Source: Magnetococcales bacterium (lineage in GTDB: Bacteria; Pseudomonadota; Magnetococcia; Magnetococcales; UBA8363). From it: a stretch of 58,627 nt of DNA. The stretch lies in contig JADGCV010000019.1 of the NCBI GenBank assembly GCA_015228815.1, positions 17,235 through 75,861 of the forward strand. The letters are read 5' to 3'. Of the stretch, positions 666 to 34,921 are shown piece after piece. The position numbers were made by a program, and so were the translations under genes. The notes under the pieces were generated by a model. The model was not told the DNA's origin. It saw only the letters and a program-made list of their open reading frames with translations, and searched no databases. How positions within the stretch are numbered: position 1 is the first letter of the stretch; every line of letters begins with the position of its first letter.

Positions 666-2639
666 TCAAACCAACCCCTGCCGTAGAAAACCGGCAACGA
701 CCAGTACCAGTAACAACAGCCCAATGCCCAGCAGGGTGAAACCAAGAATATGGGAAACCACCCGGGCCAGTCGGGATGGCGGTGGTTGCAACCGTTCGGC
801 CAGTCGTCCGCTTTCCTGCAAACGACGATACTCTTCCGGTCGTTCCTCCGCCCACTCCCGCAGGCGCCAACTGCCGGTGAACATGACAATATCCAAAGGA
901 AACTTGCCGGGCCGGAAATGGTTGTTGAAGAAATGGACCACGAACAGGGTGGTGACGGCCAGAAAGGCCTCCACTCCGTGCAGCAGGGTGGCGACGTTGA
1001 ACACCCAGCCGGGCAGAAAACGGGCAAAGAATTCGGGAAACCAAAGCAATATACCGGAGAATCCCACCACCATGGCCCCCCAATAGACTGCCCAATAGTC
1101 AAATTTTTCCCAATAGGTCCAGCGATCGAAACGGGGTGCGGCGCCCCGGCCCAGAAACCAGAGGAACTGGGCCTTCATGTCCGACCAGTCCTGTTTGCGC
1201 GGCAGCAGGGAATCGGGACCGAACCATTGGAAACTTTTGCGCTGGCGGAACAACAGGCGGAACAACACTGCCACCACATGACCGATCACGGCGATGAGGA
1301 AAACCACCGCCGCCCCCCGATGAATGGCGGCCAGCCGGGCGGGATCGCCGATCCAGCCAGACAGGGTCAGCGCCCAGAAGCTGTCCGCGTACTTGGCGGT
1401 CATGCCGGTGGCCACCAGAACCATCACCGACAGGGCCAGCAGCCAGTGATTGAGCCGCCAGGGCCAGGAAAAACGACGCACATGGCGGGTGTCACCCAGA
1501 GGAAGCGCATCGTCATGGTCATGAGCAAACCGCCGCTCCCACCGGGAACGCCGGAACCACAGCCAGGAGTGAAGATAAAAAAAGAGCAGCACCGCCAGCA
1601 CCAGGACGATCATCGCCTTGCCCGCCAGCCACATCTCCGGATAGCGCGTGAAATCGTTGGTATTGGCATGGGGCCGGAAGGCGACGAAAGAAGCCGTCGC
1701 CTGTTTGTGGCACTCCTTGCAGGTGGTGCGCAGATTGTCCGGATGGGCCTTGTCCTTCGGATCATCCACCCGGCGGGTGGCATGGCTGGCATGACAATGG
1801 GAGCATTTGGCCGCCCGCTTGCCCCCCAGCCAGGCCAGTTGGCCGTGATAAGTGGACAGATAGCTCTCCAGGGAGGATCGATGGCAGGTGCCGCAGTTTT
1901 CGGTGATCTCCCGCCAGGCAACGGGTAGCTTGTTTTCCTGGATGCGGTGGCTGGGATGGCAGTCGCCGCACACCGCGCTCTGGCCCTTCCAGGGGGTTTT
2001 CAGGGCAGCGCCATGCACCGAATGGCGGTACTGTTCCAGTGCCTTGGGATGGCAGGCGCCACACATCTCGGGCGAAGCCAGGCGATGGCTGCGGGCCCGA
2101 CCATCCGTGGCGGGAAAGATGGCATGGGAGCCATGACAGTCCTGGCATTCGGCATTGCGATGATCCCCCTCCCTGGCCGGTTGGCCATGGAGAGAAGCGA
2201 CATACTCCCTGGCCAGCAGATTGGTTTTCGTAGGGGTGGGATCCACCGCCGGAATCAGTCCCACCATGGCCCGGCCCCGGTTGATCTCCCGCATCAGCGC
2301 CTCCGGCTCCCGGTGCAGACCCTGATGGCAGGTGATGCAATCCACCCGGGCCAACCGGCCTCGCCGATGGGGCAGCTTGTCGATGTCCCCGTGGCAGGCA
2401 AGACAGGTCAGACGGCCATGGACGCTCTCCTTCAGCAAGTCCGGATCAACGAACAAGGGCTTGCGCGGGGTGTCGCCGTGTTCGCCAGTGGGCACGGCAA
2501 AACCCGCCACGCCGTGACACTCCAGGCAATGGCGATCGGTGATGGTCTGCCGATCGATTTCCCGGTCAGCCGCCCGGGCCCAGAAAGGCCCGAGCAACAG
2601 CATCAAGACCGGCATCAAGGAACGCAGCAGGATGGTCAC
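666..2639 (-). CDS. Nonaheme cytochrome c fused to a membrane cytochrome b domain (CbcL-like quinol oxidoreductase)
   Basis: The 657-residue protein has an N-terminal hydrophobic signal, then nine CXXCH haem c sites (CLECH, CLACH, CITCH, CQDCH, CGACH, CGDCH, CGTCH, CSHCH, CKECH) in the first about 340 residues, one membrane helix near 355-375, and a cytochrome b561/FdnI-like domain of four or more helices with several histidines. Geobacter CbcL has the same plan (nine c haems plus HydC/FdnI-type b). It probably passes electrons from membrane quinol to periplasmic partners. I chose a GTG start at 2639 because its bases overlap the TGA of the upstream octaheme gene (GTGA), giving translational coupling; an in-frame ATG at 2693 would overlap by 58 nt. 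A short charged tail and final membrane helix follow the b domain. Confidence 0.85.
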   Translation of the reverse strand: MTILLRSLMPVLMLLLGPFWARAADREIDRQTITDRHCLECHGVAGFAVPTGEHGDTPRKPLFVDPDLLKESVHGRLTCLACHGDIDKLPHRRGRLARVDCITCHQGLHREPEALMREINRGRAMVGLIPAVDPTPTKTNLLAREYVASLHGQPAREGDHRNAECQDCHGSHAIFPATDGRARSHRLASPEMCGACHPKALEQYRHSVHGAALKTPWKGQSAVCGDCHPSHRIQENKLPVAWREITENCGTCHRSSLESYLSTYHGQLAWLGGKRAAKCSHCHASHATRRVDDPKDKAHPDNLRTTCKECHKQATASFVAFRPHANTNDFTRYPEMWLAGKAMIVLVLAVLLFFYLHSWLWFRRSRWERRFAHDHDDALPLGDTRHVRRFSWPWRLNHWLLALSVMVLVATGMTAKYADSFWALTLSGWIGDPARLAAIHRGAAVVFLIAVIGHVVAVLFRLLFRQRKSFQWFGPDSLLPRKQDWSDMKAQFLWFLGRGAAPRFDRWTYWEKFDYWAVYWGAMVVGFSGILLWFPEFFARFLPGWVFNVATLLHGVEAFLAVTTLFVVHFFNNHFRPGKFPLDIVMFTGSWRLREWAEERPEEYRRLQESGRLAERLQPPPSRLARVVSHILGFTLLGIGLLLLVLVVAGFLRQGLV

Positions 2640-4105
2640 TTTCCGGCGCTTCCCGTTTCGGCGGTTTTTTTCTCGCGCAGGCCCAGGAACCATTTGTGGT
2701 GTTCCGAATCGAGAATCTCGTCCAGCGCCTTTTGCACCTTGGCCGCGGCCTCCTTCCTGCCCTCGTGTTCCGCCTTGGCGATGATCTCCTTCACCTCCGG
2801 CACCATCTCCATGTAAAAACGGTCGGCCACTTCGAACATGCCATGCCAGTGGGCATAGTCGGGGCCGTTCATGGCGGCGCCATGGCGGGCGCGACGGCCT
2901 TCATGATGCCAAAGGTAGAACCAGGTCCACTCCACCTTGTCGTCGAAGGGCGTCTTGGTGATCAGTCCTTCGTCCAACATGGTTTTCATCAGTTTGGCAC
3001 CGGGTTTGGCGAATTTCTCGTTGTACAGTTCGATAAAGGCATCCAACTGTTCATAGAATTTCTCGCCGTTGCCGGCGCCATGGCAGGTGGTGCAGATCAA
3101 TTTCATCTCCTTGCGCCGTTCCTGCCAGGATTTGGGATCCTGAATTCCCTTCTTGCGGTCGCGGTCATCGATGTGGATGGAGATGGGAGAACGCAAGTCC
3201 CAGGAGATGCGATCGCCCACATCGTGGGTGACCGGAAGATCCTTGGTGGCGGAAATGTGGCAGGTGGAACAGGTGGGGGCAGCGCTGTAATCCTCGCCAG
3301 CCAGCCACTTGTCGGAGGACAGGTTCATCGCCTCCTGGTTGGCGGCAAACAGGATGCCATGCTGGGACTCTTCGTAGACCTCCTTCTGGGGATGGTCCGG
3401 TCCCAGGTGGCAACGACCGCAGGTGTTCGGATGACGGGCCTGGGCAGCGGAGAAACCGTGGCGCATATGACAGGCGGCGCAACTGCCCTTGCTGCCATCG
3501 GGGTTGAGACGACCGATGCCCGTGTTGGGCCAGCCCACCGAGGAAAGCGTGCCGTCCGGGTTGACCTTGACCTCCGAGCCATGACAACTGGCGCAGCCAC
3601 TGACCACCACCGGCGACTTGCCGTGCAACAGGGGCGCCCCTTCCACCACCTCGGCCAGCACGTTGTCCAGGGAGCCCAGGATTTGACCGGCGGTGGCGTG
3701 GTGGCTGCGGTCAAACTCCGCCACCTCCCGCTTGTGGCATTGGGCGCAATCCTTGGGCGAAACAATGGTGGAAATGACGAAATCCTTGTGCTTGATGGCA
3801 TCCGGTTCGCCGGGTTTGGCTTGATGGCATTCGTAACATCCCACGTTGGCGCGAAAATGTTTGGAGGCGCCCCACTGCTGGTAAAGGCCCGTGCTCTTTT
3901 CCCGGTGGCATGAGACGCAGGTGGCGCTCTCCTTGCTCAGGTGTTCAAAGCCGCGCAAGGGTTTGATCGGTTCCTTGTCGCCCGCCTCCTGGTCATCCTT
4001 GGCCGCGGCAGACGCCGGGGTTTCGGCCCGAGCCGGGCCACCGGCCAGCCACAACATGACCAACGGTAGACACAGCCAAAACGTCACGATTCTTTTCCAG
4101 TTCAT
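2636..4105 (-). CDS. Octaheme c-type cytochrome, hydroxylamine oxidoreductase (HAO) family
   Basis: A 489-residue secreted protein: signal peptide ending near PARA, then eight CXXCH motifs (CVSCH, CYECH, CAQCH, CASCH, CAACH, CGRCH, CSTCH, CTTCH) and an HAO-type helical C-terminus with WHHEGRRARHGAAM and PDYAHWHG. HAO-family octahemes either oxidise hydroxylamine or hydrazine (with a tyrosine-crosslinked P460 haem) or, without the crosslink, reduce nitrite or hydroxylamine. Without an alignment I cannot say whether the crosslinking tyrosine is present. The second ATG (4105) has AGGA at 8 nt and is preferred over the ATG at 4111. It lies 49 nt downstream of a NarK-type gene and is coupled to the cytochrome c/b fusion, so nitrite or hydroxylamine reduction is the favoured role. 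Confidence 0.88.
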   Translation of the reverse strand: MNWKRIVTFWLCLPLVMLWLAGGPARAETPASAAAKDDQEAGDKEPIKPLRGFEHLSKESATCVSCHREKSTGLYQQWGASKHFRANVGCYECHQAKPGEPDAIKHKDFVISTIVSPKDCAQCHKREVAEFDRSHHATAGQILGSLDNVLAEVVEGAPLLHGKSPVVVSGCASCHGSEVKVNPDGTLSSVGWPNTGIGRLNPDGSKGSCAACHMRHGFSAAQARHPNTCGRCHLGPDHPQKEVYEESQHGILFAANQEAMNLSSDKWLAGEDYSAAPTCSTCHISATKDLPVTHDVGDRISWDLRSPISIHIDDRDRKKGIQDPKSWQERRKEMKLICTTCHGAGNGEKFYEQLDAFIELYNEKFAKPGAKLMKTMLDEGLITKTPFDDKVEWTWFYLWHHEGRRARHGAAMNGPDYAHWHGMFEVADRFYMEMVPEVKEIIAKAEHEGRKEAAAKVQKALDEILDSEHHKWFLGLREKKTAETGSAGK

Positions 4106-4154
4106 GTCCATGGTCCTGTCGCGTTATTGCGGAAAAAGTGGTTGCGAAAAAGGT

Positions 4155-9831: not shown

Positions 9832-11769
9832 ATGGAAGCGGTTGGTTTTATCGATATGACGGCCTCATCGACGTTCATCCTGTTTCTCGTGGGGTTCGTC
9901 GGGGGGATGGTCAGTGGGTTCATCGGTTCGGGCGGCGCGTTCGTTCTGACCCCCGCCATGATGACCATGGGTGTTCCGGCGATCGTCGCCGTGGCCAGCA
10001 ACATGGCCCATAAATTTCCCAAGGCCCTGGTCGGGGCCTACAAACGCAACAAATATGGTCAGGTGGACATCAAACTGGGAATCGTGATGGGCATCTTCGC
10101 CGAATTGGGCGTTCTCATCGGCAAGAACGTCATGGTCGATATCCGTGCCATCTTCGGCGCCACGGGGACCAATTTGTATGTCTCCTTCGTGTTCGTGGTG
10201 GTTCTGGCCATCGTCGGCGGCATCGTCCTGAAGGATGGACTCAAAGAGAAAAAGGGATCCCTGGACGCGAAGAAATCACCCGGCCACAAGGTTCCACCTC
10301 TGGCATTGAAAGTTCGTCAAATCGTCATCCCCGGGACGATGATCCATTTCAAGTCGATCGACGCCAAAATCTCTTTTCTGGTATTGGCCCCGCTGGGGAT
10401 GGCGACCGGCATGCTTGCAGCGACGATCGCCGTCGGCGGTTTCATCGGCGTCCCGGCGATGATGTATTTTGTCGGCCTTCCCGCCCTGATGGCCAGTGCC
10501 ACCGAACTGGTCATTGCCTTTGTCATGGGATTGGGGGGATCGGTCCTCTACGCCCTGGAAGGGGCGGTGGATATTCGCCTGTCGATGATCATCCTGGCCG
10601 GATCGCTTTTCGGCATCCAGATTGGCGCCATCGGGACGACCTATGTCAAGGATTATGTGGTCAAGTTCGTCATGGCCGCGATCATGCTGCTGGTGCTGGT
10701 GAGCCGCTTCTTTTACATTCCCGGCTATCTGTCGCAGTTGGGCCGGATCGACCCCATCGACGAAGGAACCATCCGCCTTCTCAACGGCATTGGCGAGGGG
10801 GCATTGGGATTTGCCCTGGTGTTCGGCGCGGTGATGATCCTGCACGCCCTCTACCAGGGAATCCGTGAACATCGGCGCGAGTTGGCGGCTCAGCCAGAAA
10901 CGGCTGCGATCGATGCCGCTACCGCCCGACCTCTGACGGCCATGATGGCGTTCGAGCGATTCCTGGTGGCGAGTGACACTTCCGAGTTCAGCGCCGCTGC
11001 CGTTCGCGAAGCCCTTGGTCTCGCCAGAAAATGCGATGCCCGGCTCCAGGTCGTCTCCCTGGTCGCAAGCGGTCTGGAATATGGCGGCGCCGGCAACCCG
11101 GTCCTGAAAGAAGAACTGGCCATGGCTCAGAGCCATCTCGATGGCATCCGGCAACAGGCCGTCGCCCAGGGGGTCGTGTGTGACACCCAGGTCATTCATG
11201 GCCAGATCGTCGATCAGGAAATCGTCACCGCCGCGGAACGTTCCCGGACCGACCTGATCGTGATGGGAAGAAGAGGACGCCGTGGCCTCGCACGGATGAT
11301 GCTGGGGCATGCCACCGCCCGGGTCATCGGCAAGGCTTCCTGCAACGTCCTTGTCGTTCCGCGTGCTGCCCGCATCGAAGGACGTCATATTGTCCTGGCC
11401 ACCGATGGTTCGCGTCATGCCGACCGGGCCATCCTTGCGACAGGGCAACTGGCGCAAAAATGCAAAACGCCCGTCTCCGTGGTCAGTGTCATCGATGGCG
11501 AGGAATCACGGGAACAGCGAAACAAGGCGGAGACGATCGTCCAACGAGCTGTGGATTACCTGCGTTCCCAGGGTATCCATGCTGAAGGAGCGGTGCGCAG
11601 TGGCCGTCCCGATGGCGAAATCATCGAACTGGTGCGGCGCAAGGGTGCGGATCTGGTCGTCGTCGGCAGCCATGGCCTGACCGGACTCGAACGAATTCTG
11701 GTAGGCAGCACGACCGAACGAATCCTCAATGGTACCGCCACCGCCGTTTTCGTGGTCAAGGGGGGATGA
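9832..11769 (+). CDS. TauE/SafE-family anion exporter fused to two UspA domains
   Basis: 645 residues. Residues about 15-350 are a TauE/SafE (TSUP) permease with about eight to nine helices and the two glycine-rich repeats (GGMVSGFIGSGGAF and GMLAATIAVGGFIGVPA). Residues about 375-510 and 515-645 are two UspA domains, each ending with the ATP-binding loop G-x2-G-x9-G: GRRGRRGLARMMLGHATARV and GSHGLTGLERILVGSTTERI. TSUP proteins export sulfite, sulfoacetate or related anions; the Usp domains would sense adenine nucleotides at the cytoplasmic face. GGAGG lies just before the ATG at 9832. The fusion is continuous with no frame shift. The actual substrate is unknown. Confidence 0.9.
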   Translation: MEAVGFIDMTASSTFILFLVGFVGGMVSGFIGSGGAFVLTPAMMTMGVPAIVAVASNMAHKFPKALVGAYKRNKYGQVDIKLGIVMGIFAELGVLIGKNVMVDIRAIFGATGTNLYVSFVFVVVLAIVGGIVLKDGLKEKKGSLDAKKSPGHKVPPLALKVRQIVIPGTMIHFKSIDAKISFLVLAPLGMATGMLAATIAVGGFIGVPAMMYFVGLPALMASATELVIAFVMGLGGSVLYALEGAVDIRLSMIILAGSLFGIQIGAIGTTYVKDYVVKFVMAAIMLLVLVSRFFYIPGYLSQLGRIDPIDEGTIRLLNGIGEGALGFALVFGAVMILHALYQGIREHRRELAAQPETAAIDAATARPLTAMMAFERFLVASDTSEFSAAAVREALGLARKCDARLQVVSLVASGLEYGGAGNPVLKEELAMAQSHLDGIRQQAVAQGVVCDTQVIHGQIVDQEIVTAAERSRTDLIVMGRRGRRGLARMMLGHATARVIGKASCNVLVVPRAARIEGRHIVLATDGSRHADRAILATGQLAQKCKTPVSVVSVIDGEESREQRNKAETIVQRAVDYLRSQGIHAEGAVRSGRPDGEIIELVRRKGADLVVVGSHGLTGLERILVGSTTERILNGTATAVFVVKGG

Positions 11770-21590: not shown

Positions 21591-21780
21591 TATCCAAAAG
21601 CAACCGTGCCCTGGAATTTCACTGTCCCAGGGATGTCGCCCCCATCAAAAACATTGAGTACAAAGCCAGCCATATTCATGTTTAACGAGATTTTTTCTCT
21701 TTAAGATTGACTTCCGTGCCGACACTGGCTACATTAAAGGCGTGATCTATTTAACAATCCAGCTTACAGGATGCGGCAAG

Positions 21781-23115
21781 ATGATCGTCAGATGTTCACT
21801 CGAAAACTGGATGTCTTTCCGCAACCAAGTCACCTTTTCGATGGTCGCCAGCCGGGAGCGCCAGCATGGAAACAGGGTTTCCAGACTCGGAAAGTATCAG
21901 ACAAGAATTCTTCCCGTTGCGGCAATTTACGGCGGCAACGCATCGGGCAAGACCAATTTTTTCAAAGCCCTGAGTTTTGCCAAGGATCTGGTCGTCAAGG
22001 GCACCCAGCCCGACAGTCGGATCCTTGTCGAGCCATTCAGACTGGACGCCAAAGCAACCGAACAGCCGTCACGATTTGGCTTCGAGCTGCTGATCGACGA
22101 AATCATTTACGAGTTCAGCTTCGTGGTGACCCGCAAAGCAGTTCTGGAAGAGAAGCTGGTAGCCATTACGAGCGCCAGTGAAAAGGTGCTCTACCATCAC
22201 AAGGACGGAAAACCCAACTTTGACAATTCCCTGGCCAAGAACCAGTTTCTCCAGTTTGCCTTCAAGGGAACCCGGGACAACCAACTGTTCCTGACCAACT
22301 CGGTCTCGCAAAAGGTTGACGAGTTCCGACCGGTCTACGACTGGTTCAAGGATACGCTCGAATTGGTTGCGCCCGACTCTCGCTTCAAACCGTTCGAGAG
22401 GTTCTTTGACGATAGCCATCCGCTCTACGCGACCATGAACGAGATGCTGCCGCAGCTCGACACCGGCATCGCGCACCTGGGGAGCGAAACGATCCCATTC
22501 GAGAACATTCCATTGCCCGAGCCCCTGAAGACCAGGTTGCAAGAAGATATGAAGGAAGGCATAGCCGTTCGTCTGCTGACCTTGCCAATCAACGAACGAT
22601 TCGTGGTAACCCGCAAAGATGGCGAACTGCTCGCCAAGAAACTGGTGACCTATCATTCGCAAGCGGACGGCACGGAGGCGAAGTTCGAGGTCCGTCAGGA
22701 GTCGGACGGTTCCCAGCGGGTGATCGATTTGTTGCCCGCGTTTCTTGATCTGTCGGTCCATGCCTCGAAGAAGGTCTACGTCATCGACGAGATCGACCGC
22801 AGCCTGCACACGCTGTTGACACGCAAATTGCTTGAGGCGTACCTGAGCAACTGTTCCACGGAAACCAGAACACAATTGCTGCTGACCACCCATGACGTTC
22901 TGCTCATGGATCAGCAACTCCTGCGCCGCGACGAAATGTGGGTCACCGAAAGAGATGCCACCGGGACCTCGAACTTGCGATCCTTCAGCGAATACAAGGA
23001 TGTCCGGTACGACAAGGATATCCGCAAGAGCTACCTGCAAGGGCGCCTGGGTGGAACTCCCAGAATTCTCCTGGGAAACGCTTTGGTCAATCCCTGCCTC
23101 ACCGAGGATCAGTGA
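21781..23115 (+). CDS. AAA15-family ATPase, RloA/AbiLi-like (defence pair, gene 1)
   Basis: 444 residues. It begins [21 protein letters not shown], the usual N-terminus of this OLD/RecF-like ATPase group. Walker A is GGNASGKT near residue 53, Walker B is [12 protein letters not shown], and LLTTHD is the switch histidine region. The start at 21781 is chosen for this homology; the frame opens 39 nt earlier. It is followed after 12 nt by an RloB-like gene. Such ATPase plus TOPRIM pairs act in phage defence (AbiL, PARIS and related systems). No mobile-element remnant is visible; the neighbours are housekeeping genes. Confidence 0.85.
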
Positions 23116-23127
23116 GGGGAATGACTG

Positions 23128-23733
23128 ATGCCACCAAAGAGACGCACATTCCAAAGACCACTTGGCGAGCGTCGTTACCGCAGACTGTTCGTGATCGCGG
23201 TGGAAGGCGTAAAGACCGAGCCACGGTATTTCGCCATCTTCAATGACCAACACTCAGTGATCCGGGTGAACTGCCTCAAAGGCAGTCACGATAGCGCCCC
23301 ACCGCAAGTTCTGAAGCGGATGGAAGATCACCTCCGGCAGGAAAATTTGCGATCCACCGACGAGGCCTGGCTCGTGGTGGACAAGGATCAGTGGACCGAC
23401 GAACAGTTGGCCCAGCTTCATGCCTGGGCTCAGGCACGCGACAATTACGGATTCGCCCTCAGCAACCCCAGGTTTGAATACTGGTTGCTGCTCCATTTCG
23501 AAGACGGTACCGGCATCACGTCGTCACGGAATTGCAACGACCGGCTGAAGCGGCACCTTCCCGGTTACGACAAGAAGATCGACACACGCAAAATCACCCA
23601 CGACCGGATCGATCAAGCCATCCGCCGCTCCAGACTGCGCGACAATCCTCCCTGCACCGACTGGCCACGTACACTTGGAAGCACCACGGTTTACAAGCTG
23701 GTCGAAAACATACTTCAATCCGACTCCCAATGA
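23128..23733 (+). CDS. RloB/AbiLii-like TOPRIM protein (defence pair, gene 2)
   Basis: 201 residues. Strand-loop VEGVKTEPRYF with Glu26 and VVDKDQW with Asp85 and Asp87 match the E and DxD metal-binding residues of TOPRIM nucleases; NPRFEYWLLLHF is an RloB family landmark. GAGGGG precedes the ATG. It probably is the toxic effector held or activated by the ATPase encoded directly upstream. Confidence 0.82.
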   Translation: MPPKRRTFQRPLGERRYRRLFVIAVEGVKTEPRYFAIFNDQHSVIRVNCLKGSHDSAPPQVLKRMEDHLRQENLRSTDEAWLVVDKDQWTDEQLAQLHAWAQARDNYGFALSNPRFEYWLLLHFEDGTGITSSRNCNDRLKRHLPGYDKKIDTRKITHDRIDQAIRRSRLRDNPPCTDWPRTLGSTTVYKLVENILQSDSQ

Positions 23734-24505: not shown

Positions 24506-25504
24506 TCATGTCCTTGATGACGGGCCTTGCCGACGGATGGGTTTGTCGTCCTTGGAGGGCTGTTGTCGATCACGAGCGGATCCTGGCGCGGTGGCGGTGG
24601 ACCGGGCCTGGGGGCGCGGCGTCGCGGAAGAAGGCTCATTTCCTGGCGCGGTGGCGGTGGACCGGGCCTGGGAGCGCGGCGTCGCGGAAGAAGGCTCATT
24701 TCCTGGCGCGGTGGCGGTGGACCGGGCCTGGGAGCGCGGCGTCGCGGAAGAGGGATTTCCTGCCGTGGTGGCGGGTCGATTGGCGGCGGAAGGCTTGTCT
24801 TGTCGCCGAACAGGGAAGGGGCTACCCGTGTTGACGGAAGTGGCCATATCTTTTTTGGCATCGGATCGGGTTGAGACAGACGGGTCCCGCCGTTCCATTC
24901 CGTGGCCGCCGACATCGGGGGGCGCGTTTTTTTCAGGCACGACGACACGGGAGGGCGGGGACGACTTCGAGACATCCTCCGACCTGGCGGCGCCGATTTC
25001 CTGTTTGACGGCCTCCCGGGGCGCGGAATAAGGTTGACGGGAAACCGGTGGCGATTCGACCGGAACGGGAGGGGTGAGGATCACGATGGAGCGCGGAGAA
25101 TCCGATTCCTTGTTCCCAGGAGATTGCCCCCTCGTCCCGTGCGTTTCCTCCGCGGTCATGGCATGGAAACGTCGCTCCTTCTCGGCCTTTTCATGCGCAT
25201 GGCGAAAATGGACCACCAATGCCACGATCCCCTGAAACAACGCCAGCCCCAGATAGATGATCGCCCATTTGTAATCACGATGTTCCACGCCCACGACGGC
25301 ATTGGTCCGAAGAATGGGCGACAAAAACAGTATATTGATGACGTTCATGCCGCCAATCGCCAGTGCGGCCCAATGGAGCCGGCCAGGCAGGAGCAACGTA
25401 AGAAGGCCCGGGATCAGGGTCAGATACCCCCCCAACAACGGAATAAAGACAAGCGCCAGGGAAATCAGCGCAATCAGAATGGCCAACGCGGTCATCGCTC
25501 GCAA
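24506..25504 (-). CDS. Membrane protein with long disordered repeat tail
   Basis: 332 residues. Three to four N-terminal helices (to about residue 105, including ALAILIALISLALVFIPLL and WAIIYLGLALFQGIVALVV) are followed by a Pro/Ser/Arg-rich cytoplasmic tail of about 220 residues. The tail contains a 20-residue unit rich in Ala, Thr and Arg three times, encoded by a 60-bp tandem repeat. I do not recognise a family. The frame was chosen over the Gly-Arg-rich plus-strand reading because it alone has a membrane domain. Confidence 0.65.
   Translation of the reverse strand: MRAMTALAILIALISLALVFIPLLGGYLTLIPGLLTLLLPGRLHWAALAIGGMNVINILFLSPILRTNAVVGVEHRDYKWAIIYLGLALFQGIVALVVHFRHAHEKAEKERRFHAMTAEETHGTRGQSPGNKESDSPRSIVILTPPVPVESPPVSRQPYSAPREAVKQEIGAARSEDVSKSSPPSRVVVPEKNAPPDVGGHGMERRDPSVSTRSDAKKDMATSVNTGSPFPVRRQDKPSAANRPATTAGNPSSATPRSQARSTATAPGNEPSSATPRSQARSTATAPGNEPSSATPRPQARSTATAPGSARDRQQPSKDDKPIRRQGPSSRT
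24581..24760. repeat. 60-bp tandem repeat, three copies
   Basis: Units at 24581-24640, 24641-24700 and 24701-24760. Copies 1 and 2 differ at one base; copy 3 diverges only in its last bases. The repeat lies inside the membrane-protein tail, in frame (20 residues per unit), so copy-number change would not break the gene. Confidence 0.95.
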
Positions 25505-28891: not shown

Positions 28892-29578
28892 TCAAAGCAG
28901 TTTCACCAGAGCGGCCATGGCCCCGACAGCCACGACCATCAGGCTTCCGAGCTTGATCACCATGCGTTGCTCCAGTTCCTTGATATCTCGTTTCAACTCC
29001 GACCGGACCGACTCGATCTTGGCATCAAGTTCCTTGATATCTCGTTTCAACTCCGACCGGACCGACTCGATCTTGGCATCAAGTTCCTTGAACCGGACAT
29101 CAATTTCCTTGAACCGGACATCAATTTCCTTGAACCGAATCTCAACCTTCGTATCCAGTTCCTTGAGCCGAACTTCGGCCTTCGTATCCAGTTCCTTGAG
29201 GTCCCGCTTCAAATCCACCCGGACCTGCTCCAGTTCCAGCCTGGTGGGCCGAACCTCAACCTTCGCATCCAGTTCTTTGAGCCGGACTTCGACCTTCGTA
29301 TCCAGTTCTTTGAGCCGGACTTCGGCCTTCGTATCCAGTTCTTTGAGCCGGACTTCGGCCTTCGTATCCAGTTCTTTGAGCCGGACTTCGGCCTTCGTAT
29401 CCAGTTCTTTGAGGTCCCGCTTCAAATCCACATGGACCTGCTCCAGTTCCAGCCTGGTAGCCAGCCGGTCTTCCATCCATTCGACGATGGTCTCGGCCTG
29501 TATTTCCGCCTGGGCCTCGGGAACGCCTGCGGCTTTCAATCTTTTGGCGTAGGCCAGCGAATCGAACATGAGCGACAT
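28892..29578 (-). CDS. DUF1640-like coiled-coil protein with C-terminal membrane helix
   Basis: 228 residues. N-terminal FDSLAYAKRLKAAGVPEAQAE and AETIVEWMEDRLAT match the DUF1640/CCDC90-like group. The middle is repetitive: five 11-residue units KELDTKAEVRL, a shorter second block, two 7-residue units (FKEIDVR) and two identical 18-residue units. It ends with a membrane helix (LGSLMVVAVGAMAALVKLL). ATG 29578 fits the family start; the extra leader to 29671 is not conserved-looking. Bacterial roles are unknown; mitochondrial relatives touch the calcium uniporter. Confidence 0.75.
   Translation of the reverse strand: MSLMFDSLAYAKRLKAAGVPEAQAEIQAETIVEWMEDRLATRLELEQVHVDLKRDLKELDTKAEVRLKELDTKAEVRLKELDTKAEVRLKELDTKVEVRLKELDAKVEVRPTRLELEQVRVDLKRDLKELDTKAEVRLKELDTKVEIRFKEIDVRFKEIDVRFKELDAKIESVRSELKRDIKELDAKIESVRSELKRDIKELEQRMVIKLGSLMVVAVGAMAALVKLL
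28973..29080. repeat. 54-bp direct repeat, two copies
   Basis: Two identical 54-bp units (28973-29026 and 29027-29080) inside the DUF1640-like gene, each coding 18 residues. Confidence 0.9.
29262..29413. repeat. 33-bp tandem repeat, about 4.6 copies
   Basis: Near-identical 33-bp units (TTCGTATCCAGTTCTTTGAG then CCGGACTTCGGCC) inside the DUF1640-like gene, coding 11-residue hendecads. Confidence 0.9.
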
Positions 29579-29635
29579 GGTGGGGTTCCCCGTTTTCCCG
29601 GATTGATGACGCCTTCTTCCCGCAGGCACATCCAA

Positions 29636-29655
29636 GGGAAGGGGCCAGCCCCTTC
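29636..29655. repeat. Short palindrome between hdrB and the DUF1640-like gene
   Basis: GGAAGGGG-CCAG-CCCCTTCC-type stem-loop, 16 nt after the hdrB stop. It has no T-run; possibly an mRNA-end hairpin. Confidence 0.5.
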
Positions 29656-29671
29656 CCAGACCCATCCGCAA

Positions 29672-30556
29672 TCAGGCAAAGGGTTTGAGGACATCGGGTT
29701 GCACCACCTGTTGATGCAAGCCCGCATCGTTCCAACTCCCCCCCCAGGACAACACCATCAACTGCGAATAATACAGGATTGGAATCTTGAAACGGGTCCC
29801 GAAGAGTTGATTGATCTTGCCTTGATAGACCTCAAGATTCAATTGGCAGACAGGACACGGGGTGACAACACATTCGGCCCCCCCATCCACCGCACATTGA
29901 AGGATCTCCCTGGTCAGTTGACACGACTTTTCCTGCTCCGAGAACATCAAAGCCCCACCGCAACAGGCAACCTTTTTGGCAAAGGGAATGGCCGTGGCCC
30001 CGGTCAGCTCGATCATTCGATCCAGATATTGCGGATTTTCAAAGGAATCCCCGGCAATGCCAAAAGGACGGTTGGTCTGACAGCCGACATAACCAGCCAC
30101 CTTCAGTCCGGTCAACGGCTTTTTCACCTTGCCCTTCATGGCGTCCCAACCGATGTCTTCGATAAGGACCTCAACCATGTGCCGGGTCTTGATCCCCCCC
30201 TCATAGGAAAGTCCCCCCTCCTTGAGGGCAAGATTGACCTTTCCCCGCAACTCGTCATCATGATCAAGCCGCTCGTTGGTCTCGCGCATCGAAAGCCAAC
30301 AGGCAGCACAGGTGGCAACCAGATCGCGCTCCCCCTGCTGCTGCCTGGAAAGGGCAAAATTGCGCGCCGACAACGACAAACGGGGAATCACACCGCCCCC
30401 CGCATAACCGATCGAGGCGCTGCAACAGTTCCAATCATCGATTTCATTGAGCTTGATGTCGAGCATCCGGCACATCGACTGCACGGAGGTCTCCAGATTG
30501 GCCGCGGAGGCGTTGTGTTCCGAACTGCAACCTGGAAAGAACGAATACTCCTTCAT
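29672..30556 (-). CDS. hdrB: Heterodisulfide reductase subunit B-like protein
   Basis: 294 residues with two cysteine-rich CCG domains: the first has PGC, NCCSASIG and CAACW; the second GCQ, ACCGGALMFS and CPVCQ. In HdrB these bind noncubane [4Fe-4S] clusters. Its ATG overlaps the hdrC stop (ATGA), with AAGGAGG before it. It is the last gene of qmoA-qmoB-hdrC-hdrB, and takes the place of the C-terminal subunit QmoC. Whether it reduces a disulfide, a quinone or a thiol carrier here is unknown. Confidence 0.9.
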   Translation of the reverse strand: MKEYSFFPGCSSEHNASAANLETSVQSMCRMLDIKLNEIDDWNCCSASIGYAGGGVIPRLSLSARNFALSRQQQGERDLVATCAACWLSMRETNERLDHDDELRGKVNLALKEGGLSYEGGIKTRHMVEVLIEDIGWDAMKGKVKKPLTGLKVAGYVGCQTNRPFGIAGDSFENPQYLDRMIELTGATAIPFAKKVACCGGALMFSEQEKSCQLTREILQCAVDGGAECVVTPCPVCQLNLEVYQGKINQLFGTRFKIPILYYSQLMVLSWGGSWNDAGLHQQVVQPDVLKPFA

Positions 30557-31149
30557 GCCTTGCCCTCCTTCTGATTTTCAAGTTCAAACGCCTTCTTCAA
30601 CATGGCTTTGAATCCGGGATAACCCTTTATTTTTCCACGGAAAGGGAGGGGTTTGAGACGTTTGGCCTTCAACATGCCCAACGCCGAATCCTTCATTTCC
30701 AATCCCTGTTTGATCCCTTCGCCGATGCCATCCTTGAAATACAGTTTCATCGTCAGGGCCGCCTCGCCGACCCGACCGGTAGCGACGATGTTTTCCCAGA
30801 AAATGTCCTTGGCGAACTGATGGGTCGGTTGTTTGGGATTGGCCTTGCCCTGAACCGAAGCATAACGGGCCAGACCATGGACGATATGGGTGATGGGAAG
30901 ATTGCGCGGGCAACGGACAATGCAGTTGTAACAGGAGGTACACATCCACATGTCGGAACTGGTCAATACCTCGTCGCGCATTCCGGCGCGGACCATCTGA
31001 AAAAGCTGCCTCGGGGAATAGGTCCAGGCCCCAAGAAAGCCCATGGGGCAGGATCCGGCACAAACGCCGCACTGCATGCACATCTTGATCCAGTGCCCCT
31101 CTTCCGAATTCTGATAGACCTCTTTGGCGAACGTCAGGTCGTATGTCAT
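30553..31149 (-). CDS. hdrC: Heterodisulfide reductase subunit C-like ferredoxin
   Basis: 198 residues, soluble. Two [4Fe-4S] motifs CMQCGVCAGSCP and CTSCYNCIVRCP lie in the first 85 residues. Unlike QmoC there is no membrane-helix domain. It starts 86 bp after qmoB and overlaps hdrB by 4 nt. It should relay electrons between QmoB and HdrB. Confidence 0.9.
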   Translation of the reverse strand: MTYDLTFAKEVYQNSEEGHWIKMCMQCGVCAGSCPMGFLGAWTYSPRQLFQMVRAGMRDEVLTSSDMWMCTSCYNCIVRCPRNLPITHIVHGLARYASVQGKANPKQPTHQFAKDIFWENIVATGRVGEAALTMKLYFKDGIGEGIKQGLEMKDSALGMLKAKRLKPLPFRGKIKGYPGFKAMLKKAFELENQKEGKA

Positions 31150-31235
31150 CGATTGTTCTCCAGTCGGAATCGCGCCACCGCTCGAAAAACCCGAAAAAAG
31201 CGGAGGATCGAGCGGGGCGCAACCGTTGATCGGGA

Positions 31236-33446
31236 TTAGAATTCCTTGTAAGGATTGGGATCCAGTTCACTGATTGCCGCCACAAAGTCATTGATGACCT
31301 TGGGGAGGGTCTCGGCGTCCATGATGTTGACCTCCACCATCTTCACCCGATCCGATTCCAATTGCAGGCGATCCAGAGTTTCGGAGACCTTGCTCAGGCG
31401 GATTTCCGCCAGGGCCGAACCACGGACGTTGTGGCACTGGTAATCGGTACCATGCCGGCATCCCATCAGAAGAACACCGTCATACCCCTTGGACATGGCA
31501 TCGGCGATCCACACCAGACTCATCGATCCCATGCAGCGCAAAGGGATGATGCGAATGTAGGGCGAAAGCGGCGTGCGATTGCGTCCCACCATGTCGATGG
31601 CAGGAATGGCGTCGTTTTCGCAGGCAAAGACGAGAATCCGCGGTTTTTCATCGTCCGCCTCGGGGATTTCCATCTCCTTGAGCATGGAGCCGATCATGTC
31701 CACCGAATAGTTGGCGAAAGAGATGATCTTCTGCGGACAGGCCCCCATGCAGGTGCCGCAACGGCGACACCGGGTTGGATTGAACAGAGGATTGCCCTTT
31801 TCATCCTCGTTGATCGCCCCGAACGGACATTCCTCGGTACAACGTTTGCACTGGGTACACCCCTCTTCCCGGAACGAAGGGAAGGAAAGATCGCCCGCGC
31901 GCGGATGGACCGCAGCCCCACGGGCAACCGATTCCACCACCTGGATCGCCTTCAAGGCCGCGCCGGCAGCATCGGTCGTCGAAGCGGAAATGCCCATCGG
32001 ACGCCGGGCCGGGCCGGCAACGTAGATTCCCGTGCGCCGGGTTTCATAGGGAAAACAGATGAAATGGGAGTCGGGAAAATTGTTCTTCAACGAAGGCAAA
32101 CCCGGTCCCTGACGGTATTGCAGATTGAGCACCGATCCCGGAAGATCATCGACCTGCTTGCCGACCGGAGAAGCGGAATTGGGATCCTGGGTATCGACGG
32201 TGGTCTCCATCCCGGTCGCCAGGACCAGAAGATCGACCTCCATTTTGGCCTTCTGGCGCAACAGTTTGTCATCCACCTCCAGGGTCAATCCCGAGGGGGC
32301 CTGGGAAACCTGCCCGATGTCCCCCTTGATGAAAATCCCCCCCTCGTTCTGAACCTTGCGGTAGAAATCCTCCATCTGCCCCGGAGTCCTGATTTCCTGG
32401 TAGATCAGATAGGCGGAAGCCTCGGGATGATTTTCGATGACATACAACGCCTGTTTGAGCGAATAGGTGCAGCAGGCACCGGAACAATATTCCAGATGGC
32501 TCGAATCGCGCTGACCGGCGCACAGAGCGAAAGCGACCCGCCTGGCGGGTTTGCCATCGGACTTGCGAACAATTTTGCCCGACCTGGCCATCTCCTCGAA
32601 TTCCATGCTCGTCAGGACATCGGGAGAAGAACCGTATCCCAGGCGCTTGTCCAGTTTGCCCGGGTCGTAAGAGCGGTAACCCGTGGCGATGACGATGCCG
32701 CCAACCCGTTCCACCGAGGTCGCGGAACCGTTCTTGAGGGTGACATCGAACAACCCTGGGGCGCCGACGGTCTTCTGGACCACGGTGTTGTTCATGATGC
32801 GGATGTGTTTGTTGCCCTTGACCTCGGCCAACAGCTTGGGCAGGGGATTTTCCTCAAGTTTGTTGTAGGGGGCGCGGGCAGGAGATACCTTGTGCATCAG
32901 GGCAACCTTGCCGCCCAGGGTCTCCTCCTTTTCCACCAGAAGCGCATTGTAACCGGTCCGGGCGACCTCCAGTGCCGCCGTCAACCCCGAAATCCCGCCG
33001 CCAACCACCAGGACATCCTTCGAAAACGGCGTCGACGCCGCGAAAGGATTGGGTTGGTTCATCTTCTTGACCTTGACACATCCGCAGCGGACGTAGTCCT
33101 CGGCCATCATCTGACGGTCTTCCTCCGCCGTCTCGTTTCCTTCGGGGACATCGAGGACCCACAGGCACTTGTCGCGGATGTCCACCCGATCCATCTGGGC
33201 AACCCCCAGACGGAATTCCTCGGTCTTGACCCGGTGGGAACAGCCGACGATGATCAGGGCGTTGACCCCTTCCGCCGACATGTCCTTCTGGATCATTTGG
33301 ATTCCTTCGCTGCCGCAAAGGAATTCATGATTTTTCACGACGGGGATTTTCTGTTCCTTGGCGGCGACGTTGCCGAGCGCCTTGACATCCAGGGCCTCCC
33401 CGATGCCGCAGCCGGTACAGATATAGCAACCGATCTTTTTTTCCAT
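31236..33446 (-). CDS. qmoB: QmoB, HdrA-like flavoprotein with MvhD-like C-terminus
   Basis: 736 residues. N-terminal CYICTGCGIGEALD; FAD loop VVGGGISGLTAALEVA near 145; HdrA-type CSGACCTYS; two [4Fe-4S] motifs CTQCKRCTEECP and CRRCGTCMGACP near 560-605; and an MvhD-like end (LRCMGSMSLVW, GCRHGTDYQC). The length matches QmoB of sulfate reducers. ATG 33446 starts 7 nt after qmoA and fits the family N-terminus; the frame extends to 33590 without homology. Qmo proteins exchange electrons between APS reductase and the quinone pool. An aprAB pair is not in this window. Confidence 0.92.
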   Translation of the reverse strand: MEKKIGCYICTGCGIGEALDVKALGNVAAKEQKIPVVKNHEFLCGSEGIQMIQKDMSAEGVNALIIVGCSHRVKTEEFRLGVAQMDRVDIRDKCLWVLDVPEGNETAEEDRQMMAEDYVRCGCVKVKKMNQPNPFAASTPFSKDVLVVGGGISGLTAALEVARTGYNALLVEKEETLGGKVALMHKVSPARAPYNKLEENPLPKLLAEVKGNKHIRIMNNTVVQKTVGAPGLFDVTLKNGSATSVERVGGIVIATGYRSYDPGKLDKRLGYGSSPDVLTSMEFEEMARSGKIVRKSDGKPARRVAFALCAGQRDSSHLEYCSGACCTYSLKQALYVIENHPEASAYLIYQEIRTPGQMEDFYRKVQNEGGIFIKGDIGQVSQAPSGLTLEVDDKLLRQKAKMEVDLLVLATGMETTVDTQDPNSASPVGKQVDDLPGSVLNLQYRQGPGLPSLKNNFPDSHFICFPYETRRTGIYVAGPARRPMGISASTTDAAGAALKAIQVVESVARGAAVHPRAGDLSFPSFREEGCTQCKRCTEECPFGAINEDEKGNPLFNPTRCRRCGTCMGACPQKIISFANYSVDMIGSMLKEMEIPEADDEKPRILVFACENDAIPAIDMVGRNRTPLSPYIRIIPLRCMGSMSLVWIADAMSKGYDGVLLMGCRHGTDYQCHNVRGSALAEIRLSKVSETLDRLQLESDRVKMVEVNIMDAETLPKVINDFVAAISELDPNPYKEF

Positions 33447-33453
33447 CGTTCCC

Positions 33454-34725
33454 TTATCCCTTTGCATGCACAGCTGTTTGAATGGCCCGGAGCGCGGATG
33501 CGGTGCTCGATTGGACCGAACCGGACACATCGGAAGGTTGACTGGCGCAACCCGAGGAAAAAAGTCCGCCTCCCGAAACGACAAAGCCATAATCGTCGTA
33601 ACGGGCTTCCTTCAGGGGAACCCTGGAGGTGGTCGCGGAATTGGGTTCCATTCCCGTGGCCAAAACCACAAGATCGAACGGTTCCTCGTAGCGGACGCCG
33701 GTAAGGGTATTCTCACCCACGACCACGGGATTGCCGGTTTTGGGATCTTCATCGATACGGGCCGGCTTGGACTTGATCCACCGGACCTGGGAATCGGCCT
33801 CCACCATTTTCTGGAAGGCTTCGTAGCGGTCCATGGCCCTGAGATCGATATAGAAGATGGTCACCTTCGAATCGGGATACAGACCACGAACATAGGTGGC
33901 CTGCTTCATCGAGGCCAGACAGCAGATCCGCGAACAGAAAGGCAAATAGTTGTGGTCCCGGGAGCCGGCGCACTGGATGAAGGCGACATTCCGCGCCTCC
34001 TTGCCGTCGGAGGGACGAATGATCCTGCCTCCGGTGGGGCCAAACCGGTCGGCCATCCGTTCGAAGCGCATGTTGGTGGTAACGTTGGCGAAACGGCCAA
34101 AGCCGTAGGGTTGGATTTTTTCCGCATCGTAGGGTTTCCAGCCCGTGGTCCAGACAACACTGGCCACCTTTTCCTCGATGACCACCGGCTGCATGCCCGG
34201 TTCGATGGCGCCAACGGGACAGACCTCGACCAGTTTTCGCGCCTCGTCGGTGGCGGCAAAATCGGGATCCATGTAGAAATGGCTGGGGAAGGCCATGAAA
34301 TGATCGTTGCGGATGGCCTTGACCTTGTTCATGCCGAAGTTGTAGGGATTGTCCACTTCGGTGGTGCAGGCCTTGGCGCATTCGCCACACGCGGTACACT
34401 TGTGGTTGACGAAGCGCGGATGTTGCCGGATCCTCGCGGTAAAGGCGCCGGTCGATCCGGTGATCTCTTCCACTTCCGCGAGCGTCATCAGACGGATGCG
34501 CGGATTGTTCTTGATGCGCTGGTAGTTGATCTCCAAGCCGCAGGTGGGAGAACAGAGCTTGGGAAAATATTTATTGTGCTGCGCGACCCGGCCTCCGAAA
34601 TGGGGAGATTTTTCAACCAGGAGAACATTGTATCCGACTTCGGCAGCCTCAACGGCAGTGGTGAGACCACTGATTCCGCCGCCGACGACCAAAATGGTTT
34701 GGCCCGCGGCTTGCCCATCCACCAT
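33454..34725 (-). CDS. qmoA: QmoA, HdrA-like FAD protein
   Basis: 423 residues. FAD loop VVGGGISGLTTAVEAAEVGY at about 13, CSPTCGLEINYQ, one ferredoxin site CTACGECAKACTTE near 108, VCPVGAIEP, FCSRICCLASMKQA, and a C-terminal FAD segment ending GCASQPSDVSGSVQSSTASA. ATG 34725 has GGAGG 7 nt upstream. It is the first gene of the qmoA-qmoB-hdrC-hdrB operon, whose promoter should lie in the 333-bp gap toward the M16 gene. Confidence 0.93.
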   Translation of the reverse strand: MVDGQAAGQTILVVGGGISGLTTAVEAAEVGYNVLLVEKSPHFGGRVAQHNKYFPKLCSPTCGLEINYQRIKNNPRIRLMTLAEVEEITGSTGAFTARIRQHPRFVNHKCTACGECAKACTTEVDNPYNFGMNKVKAIRNDHFMAFPSHFYMDPDFAATDEARKLVEVCPVGAIEPGMQPVVIEEKVASVVWTTGWKPYDAEKIQPYGFGRFANVTTNMRFERMADRFGPTGGRIIRPSDGKEARNVAFIQCAGSRDHNYLPFCSRICCLASMKQATYVRGLYPDSKVTIFYIDLRAMDRYEAFQKMVEADSQVRWIKSKPARIDEDPKTGNPVVVGENTLTGVRYEEPFDLVVLATGMEPNSATTSRVPLKEARYDDYGFVVSGGGLFSSGCASQPSDVSGSVQSSTASALRAIQTAVHAKG

Positions 34726-34837: not shown

Positions 34838-34921
34838 CATGGCCGAACGAATTCTGATTCTATGAATCCCTCGGAGAATGTTCAACGGAGTTTCGCGATT
34901 CGATCATCTTTTGCTTGGATA

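Follow-up and report, generated by a model that had tools for sequence, protein, structure and literature searches.

The four genes qmoA-qmoB-hdrC-hdrB, which lie on the minus strand at 34725-29672 of the window (the whole 58,627-nucleotide stretch of Magnetococcales DNA that was analysed), very probably encode the partner of the APS reductase AprBA and would thus provide the route by which electrons leave APS-dependent sulfite oxidation. This degree of confidence covers the partner role of the operon and not the last electron acceptor, which is considered separately below. The assignment is based on the presence in the same genome of sat-aprB, a second aprB, the end of aprA and dsrA, dsrB and dsrL, on the lack of both QmoC and AprM in that genome, and on the co-occurrence of the operon with the sat-linked type of AprA and with AprB containing the motif KGQD(K/R).

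All four genes are read in one direction, with 7 bp between qmoA and qmoB, 86 bp between qmoB and hdrC and a 4-bp overlap of hdrC and hdrB. A Shine-Dalgarno-like GGAGG precedes the ATG of qmoA, and a candidate promoter-like site (TTGAAC-17-TAGAAT, minus strand, 34857..34885), which matched at 9 of 12 positions in a consensus scan only, is located 5' of this gene. The qmoA gene (34725-33454, minus strand) encodes an HdrA-like FAD protein of 423 amino acids with one 4Fe-4S motif (C110-C120), which scored 340.8 bits against the HdrA2 model in the profile search and matched PDB HdrA chains with an E value of 1e-79. The product of qmoB (33446-31236, minus strand) is again of the HdrA-like FAD type, carries two 4Fe-4S motifs and has FlpD/MvhD as its C-terminal domain (HdrA2, 392.7 bits; FlpD, 123.7 bits); its length of 736 amino acids is counted from the start MEKKIGCY, the longest open reading frame beginning at 33590. 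QmoA and QmoB are therefore paired HdrA-like proteins of which QmoB carries the FlpD domain. The hdrC gene (31149-30553, minus strand) encodes a soluble polypeptide of 198 amino acids with a net positive charge and two 4Fe-4S motifs of the form CxxCxxCxxxC. It scored 90.2 bits against TIGR03290, under the model cut-off of 160, and matched the qmoC model NF038018 at positions 2-100 of 360 only, and hence just in the N-terminal region of QmoC. Most groups compared have a strongly basic HdrC, which is compatible with binding to a membrane or to a partner, but not diagnostic. HdrB (30556-29672, minus strand; 294 amino acids) contains two CCG domains, seen as two stretches matching PF02754, and retains all ten cluster cysteines, which are invariant across an alignment of 35 sequences. 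Its AlphaFold model superimposed on methanogen HdrB with a Z score of 35 and an rmsd of 1.6-1.8 A over 275-285 residues, and showed no extension relative to it. No membrane helix was identified in any of the four products by hydropathy (best 19-residue Kyte-Doolittle mean 1.47), confirming what the first-pass annotation of this DNA had stated, and a hydrophobic-moment scan of HdrB revealed no clear membrane anchor. Four adjacent specific matches, together with orthologues in many genomes of the same order (including those of QmoB), exclude a chance association. Directly 3' of hdrB, at 28892-29671, is a gene for a coiled-coil-like protein with tandem repeats of 21, 33 and 54 bp, and a similar open reading frame is present on contig C8 of the same genome (L012, 1936-2592).

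The source genome (4.2 Mb in 96 contigs, 99% complete) was searched family by family. The first-pass annotation had described the operon as lacking both QmoC and aprAB; the gene order and the lack of QmoC were upheld, but aprAB is missing from the neighbourhood only, and the operon is not an orphan. The genome contains aprB twice and aprA once, all as fragments cut by contig ends and none adjoining the operon: contig C5 opens with sat and then aprB, contig C56 closes with another aprB that follows adk and hppA (labels given by sequence resemblance, without a family search), and contig C78 opens with the final 109 positions of aprA. Over 171 bases the aprB pieces share 96% identity, and it was probably these near-identical copies that broke the assembly; complete sat-aprB-aprA and adk-hppA-aprB-aprA clusters were seen in congeners. 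On contig C5 (L010, 1-264), aprB breaks off about 70 codons in, and the final bases do not continue as aprB. A second aprBA copy behind genes for adenylate kinase and a membrane H+-pyrophosphatase was observed on contig C56 (L011, 6150-9603) and in loci L099 and L113, and H+-pyrophosphatase genes also occur near qmoAB-hdrCB in the proteobacterial loci L160, L163, L175, L183 and L205. AMP and pyrophosphate are substrates of the APS-dependent sulfite oxidation pathway. Genes of the Dsr pathway were found as dsrA, dsrB and dsrL together on contig C4 and as dsrC, dsrM and dsrK together on contig C8, the labels dsrL and dsrK being based on sequence and position; dsrL is a mark of the oxidative Dsr pathway. 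Reverse-type dsrAB-dsrL and dsrC-dsrM-dsrK, with sat and aprB/aprA, indicate a sulfur oxidiser that runs the Dsr pathway in reverse and oxidises sulfite by way of APS. No QmoC was found in the genome, in which the sole match to PF02665 (Nitrate_red_gam) was DsrM and the sole match to the qmoC model was HdrC. The PF02665 protein on contig C8 was considered as a candidate QmoC and rejected, as it is the DsrM adjoining dsrC and dsrK. A search for AprM in the source genome was likewise negative. The genome thus encodes AprBA, as fragments only, with an AprB loop of the Qmo type, and lacks both AprM and QmoC; any contact of the operon's products with quinone would not be made through a transmembrane subunit, in keeping with the earlier reading.

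Across the order, the operon was present whole or in part in 34 of 48 genomes (a count including G001, with QmoA only, and G012, with fragments). The same gene order, with hdrC and hdrB after qmoB and no membrane subunit, was seen in genomes of the order, and QmoC scored above the model cut-off in none of the 48. In the relatives read, the divergent neighbour of the operon was usually one same peptidase-like gene. Two AprB lineages have been distinguished previously, and a KGX(D/E)(K/R) loop was proposed as the Qmo docking site (PMC2211403). Two types of AprBA were found in this order. The first is encoded as aprM-aprB-aprA and has an AprB of 160 amino acids without the loop (RCDGCGHCVDICP); the second, mostly encoded as sat-aprB-aprA, has an AprB of about 142 amino acids with KGQDK or KGQDR, and KGQD(K/R) was present in every second-type AprB read from operon-positive genomes. 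The sat-linked AprA type was detected in 33 of 34 operon-positive genomes versus 6 of 14 operon-negative ones (Fisher p 6e-5) and, among genomes at least 90% complete, in all 24 with the operon versus two of six without it (Fisher p 5e-4), both tests ignoring kinship among genomes. Four of the six operon-negative genomes with this AprA type are at most 80% complete; the other two are G025 and G028. The latter, 90% complete, has sat-aprBA with a KEQDR loop and no qmoB and, like the separation of the operon from aprBA in the source genome, speaks against the partner role. G025 (L103) encodes AprM and a divergent second-type AprBA with the degenerate loop QGRE, no adjacent sat and no Qmo operon. 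AprM was found in five genomes of the order, only one of which has the operon, and one single-contig genome of 4.7 Mb has no AprA. Clusters of sat-aprAB have been reported in freshwater Magnetococcales, and not in marine ones such as MC-1 (PMC6783814). The pairing of AprB loop type with electron partner inside one order adds to the known picture.

In the mechanism that we propose, reverse DsrAB would yield sulfite, AprBA would couple sulfite to AMP with formation of APS and release of two electrons, and Sat would convert APS and PPi to sulfate and ATP. QmoA, QmoB, HdrC and HdrB are predicted to form one complex, with the KGQDK loop of AprB docking on QmoAB, and electrons would pass from the Fe-S clusters and FAD of QmoB/QmoA to HdrC, with its two 4Fe-4S clusters, and on to the two non-cubane clusters of HdrB, in a putative order and direction. 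In a last step the complex may make peripheral contact with the quinone pool, with no transmembrane subunit, in the manner of SdhE-type complexes. We regard the quinone pool as the leading candidate for the last acceptor, at about even chances, since QmoC and AprM, the alternatives in the same slot, are membrane proteins, since redox potentials, as a matter of general knowledge, favour quinone, and since HdrB is matched no less well by the SdhE-type anchor model NF042965 (190.4 bits, below the family cut-off of 500) than by the HdrB model TIGR03288 (188.9 bits, also below the cut-off). The HdrB structure model, with no extension relative to methanogen HdrB, and the ten cysteines, which suit disulfide reductases and SdhE alike, add nothing in favour of the quinone step.

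A soluble protein or thiol disulfide ranks second as last acceptor and deserves serious, if lesser, weight. AprBA would again be the partner, HdrB would end on a DsrC-type protein or a small thiol with no direct quinone contact, and flavin-based bifurcation or confurcation may take place in QmoA/QmoB. The ten conserved cysteines, the full methanogen HdrB fold, the lack of membrane helices in all products and the presence of dsrC beside dsrMK are in line with such an acceptor. With a potential of about -60 mV, the sulfite/APS couple lies above typical disulfides, and the transfer would need energy input. Moreover, the ten cysteines do not separate a disulfide reductase from SdhE, because SdhE-type quinone-linked anchors share the same motif (PMC2680327). 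Several operon-carrying relatives have no recognisable dsrA, and a link with the Dsr pathway is therefore not universal; the lack of dsrA does not eliminate DsrC as an acceptor, since seven of eight such relatives still have DsrC-family genes.

The direction of electron flow proposed for the partner of AprBA can be weighed against phylogeny. A scan of named genomes returned more than 580 relatives of QmoB; of 80 loci read, 59 contained hdrC and hdrB and 8 a membrane QmoC, while the remainder were truncated at contig ends or belonged to other types. In a quick HdrB tree, rooted on two sHdr-like loci that had been identified by gene layout, Firmicutes and Desulfobacterota fell outside a clade of proteobacterial sulfur oxidisers (SH-aLRT 95), which is split into alphaproteobacterial forms and a group of this order with beta- and gammaproteobacterial sulfur oxidisers (SH-aLRT 99). 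In the QmoB tree the order formed one clade (100) separate from the sulfate-reducer set (99); this quick tree is unrooted, with a midpoint for drawing, and allows the separation to be read, not the direction of transfer. As both proteins group away from Firmicutes, the Gram-positive arrangement noted at first holds for gene content and not for descent. A reductive operation of the complex, in which it would supply AprBA with electrons to reduce sulfate as Gram-positive sulfate reducers do, is improbable. The gene content does equal that of Desulfotruncus arcticus and Desulfovirgula (L217, L161), and D. reducens had higher levels of HdrC and HdrB with sulfate than with Fe(III)-citrate (PMC4759654), but dsrL adjoins dsrAB, HdrB and QmoB fall outside the sulfate reducers, and DsrAB of freshwater Magnetococcales has been placed in the oxidative group (PMC6783814, where sulfate reduction was not excluded). 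An sHdr-like or HdrABC-Flx-like complex with no relation to APS reductase is more improbable still: the four proteins are all members of the HdrA, HdrB and HdrC superfamilies and the curated HdrB and HdrC models were missed, but HdrB from the two sHdr-like loci is set apart by a long, fully supported branch, which led us to reject sHdr membership, and the QmoB search of the source genome found no sHdrA-like protein, QmoA and QmoB form a pair of HdrA paralogues in which QmoB bears FlpD, and the operon co-occurs with one AprBA type.

With AprBA as the partner, the operon bears on how AprBA hands over electrons without QmoC or AprM in many sulfur oxidisers and in Gram-positive sulfate reducers. 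Both solutions occur in one order, AprM-linked AprBA without the AprB loop and Qmo-HdrCB-linked AprBA with it, and therefore offer a natural comparison for docking and electron route. That a wholly soluble QmoAB-HdrCB carries AprBA electrons to a protein disulfide with flavin-based coupling seems unlikely; if true, this half of sulfur oxidation would be uncoupled from direct quinone reduction, and the two APS reductase types would differ in bioenergetics and not in partner alone.

Elsewhere in the window, two adjoining multihaem c-type cytochromes are encoded at 666-4111; one of them also contains a cytochrome b561 domain, and the two are a possible membrane electron-transfer pair. A TauE/SafE permease fused with universal stress protein domains is encoded at 9832-11769, and an AAA_21 ATPase followed by an RloB-like protein at 21742-23733 resembles known defence-associated gene pairs. 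A 60-bp tandem repeat (24581-24774; 3.3 copies, 94% matches) lies within a predicted open reading frame with no Pfam match. An Rfam search of the window gave zero matches.

Among known systems, sHdr differs from the operon in that its HdrA is short and single while HdrC and HdrB are doubled. Methanogen HdrABC (5odc, 7bkb, 8rvu) shares the HdrB fold with its ten cluster cysteines, the homology of HdrA to QmoA/QmoB and the FlpD/MvhD domain; here HdrA is duplicated into QmoA and QmoB, and the predicted partner is AprBA instead of a hydrogenase or formate dehydrogenase. The SdhE-type anchor of 8-methylmenaquinol:fumarate reductase, which comes from a quinol-linked family devoid of transmembrane helices (PMC2680327), is alike in its ten-cysteine motif and its lack of such helices, and has an amphipathic membrane anchor for which the hydrophobic-moment scan gave no clear counterpart in HdrB. 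QmoABC of Gram-negative sulfate reducers and Chlorobi has homologous QmoA and QmoB, a QmoC whose N-terminal part resembles HdrC and an AprB of the same loop type (PMC2211403), whereas the operon here is without the membrane QmoC with its haem domain and has HdrB added. Gram-positive sulfate reducers (Desulfotomaculum), which have qmoAB with hdrCB (PMC4759654, PMC3569383), likewise have no QmoC, soluble HdrC and HdrB and a complex associated with AprBA; they differ in a reductive metabolism, in qmoAB-hdrCB genes close to sat and aprBA, and in an HdrB that is about 40-42% identical and belongs to another clade. The arrangement, which the first-pass annotation had compared with that of Gram-positive sulfate reducers, is not confined to these: qmoAB-hdrBC instead of qmoC has been reported for sulfur-oxidising Proteobacteria (PMC4136832, PMC10504309, PMC10356861, PMC11596669), including Thiolapillus brandeum Hiromi 1, Thiobacter aerophilum and 'Ca. 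Taurinisymbion', where the same four genes replace qmoC. In Hiromi 1, qmoAB-hdrBC is also located apart from aprAB, with no AprM and no QmoC. The genome paper on a freshwater magnetotactic coccus reported sat-aprAB, with no mention of Qmo in its main text (PMC6783814). The operon adds one lineage to this known arrangement, and its assignment for this order is an addition. The beta- and gammaproteobacterial forms, with HdrB about 54-61% identical, are its sister group in the HdrB tree, and this order makes up a clade of its own in both the HdrB and QmoB trees.
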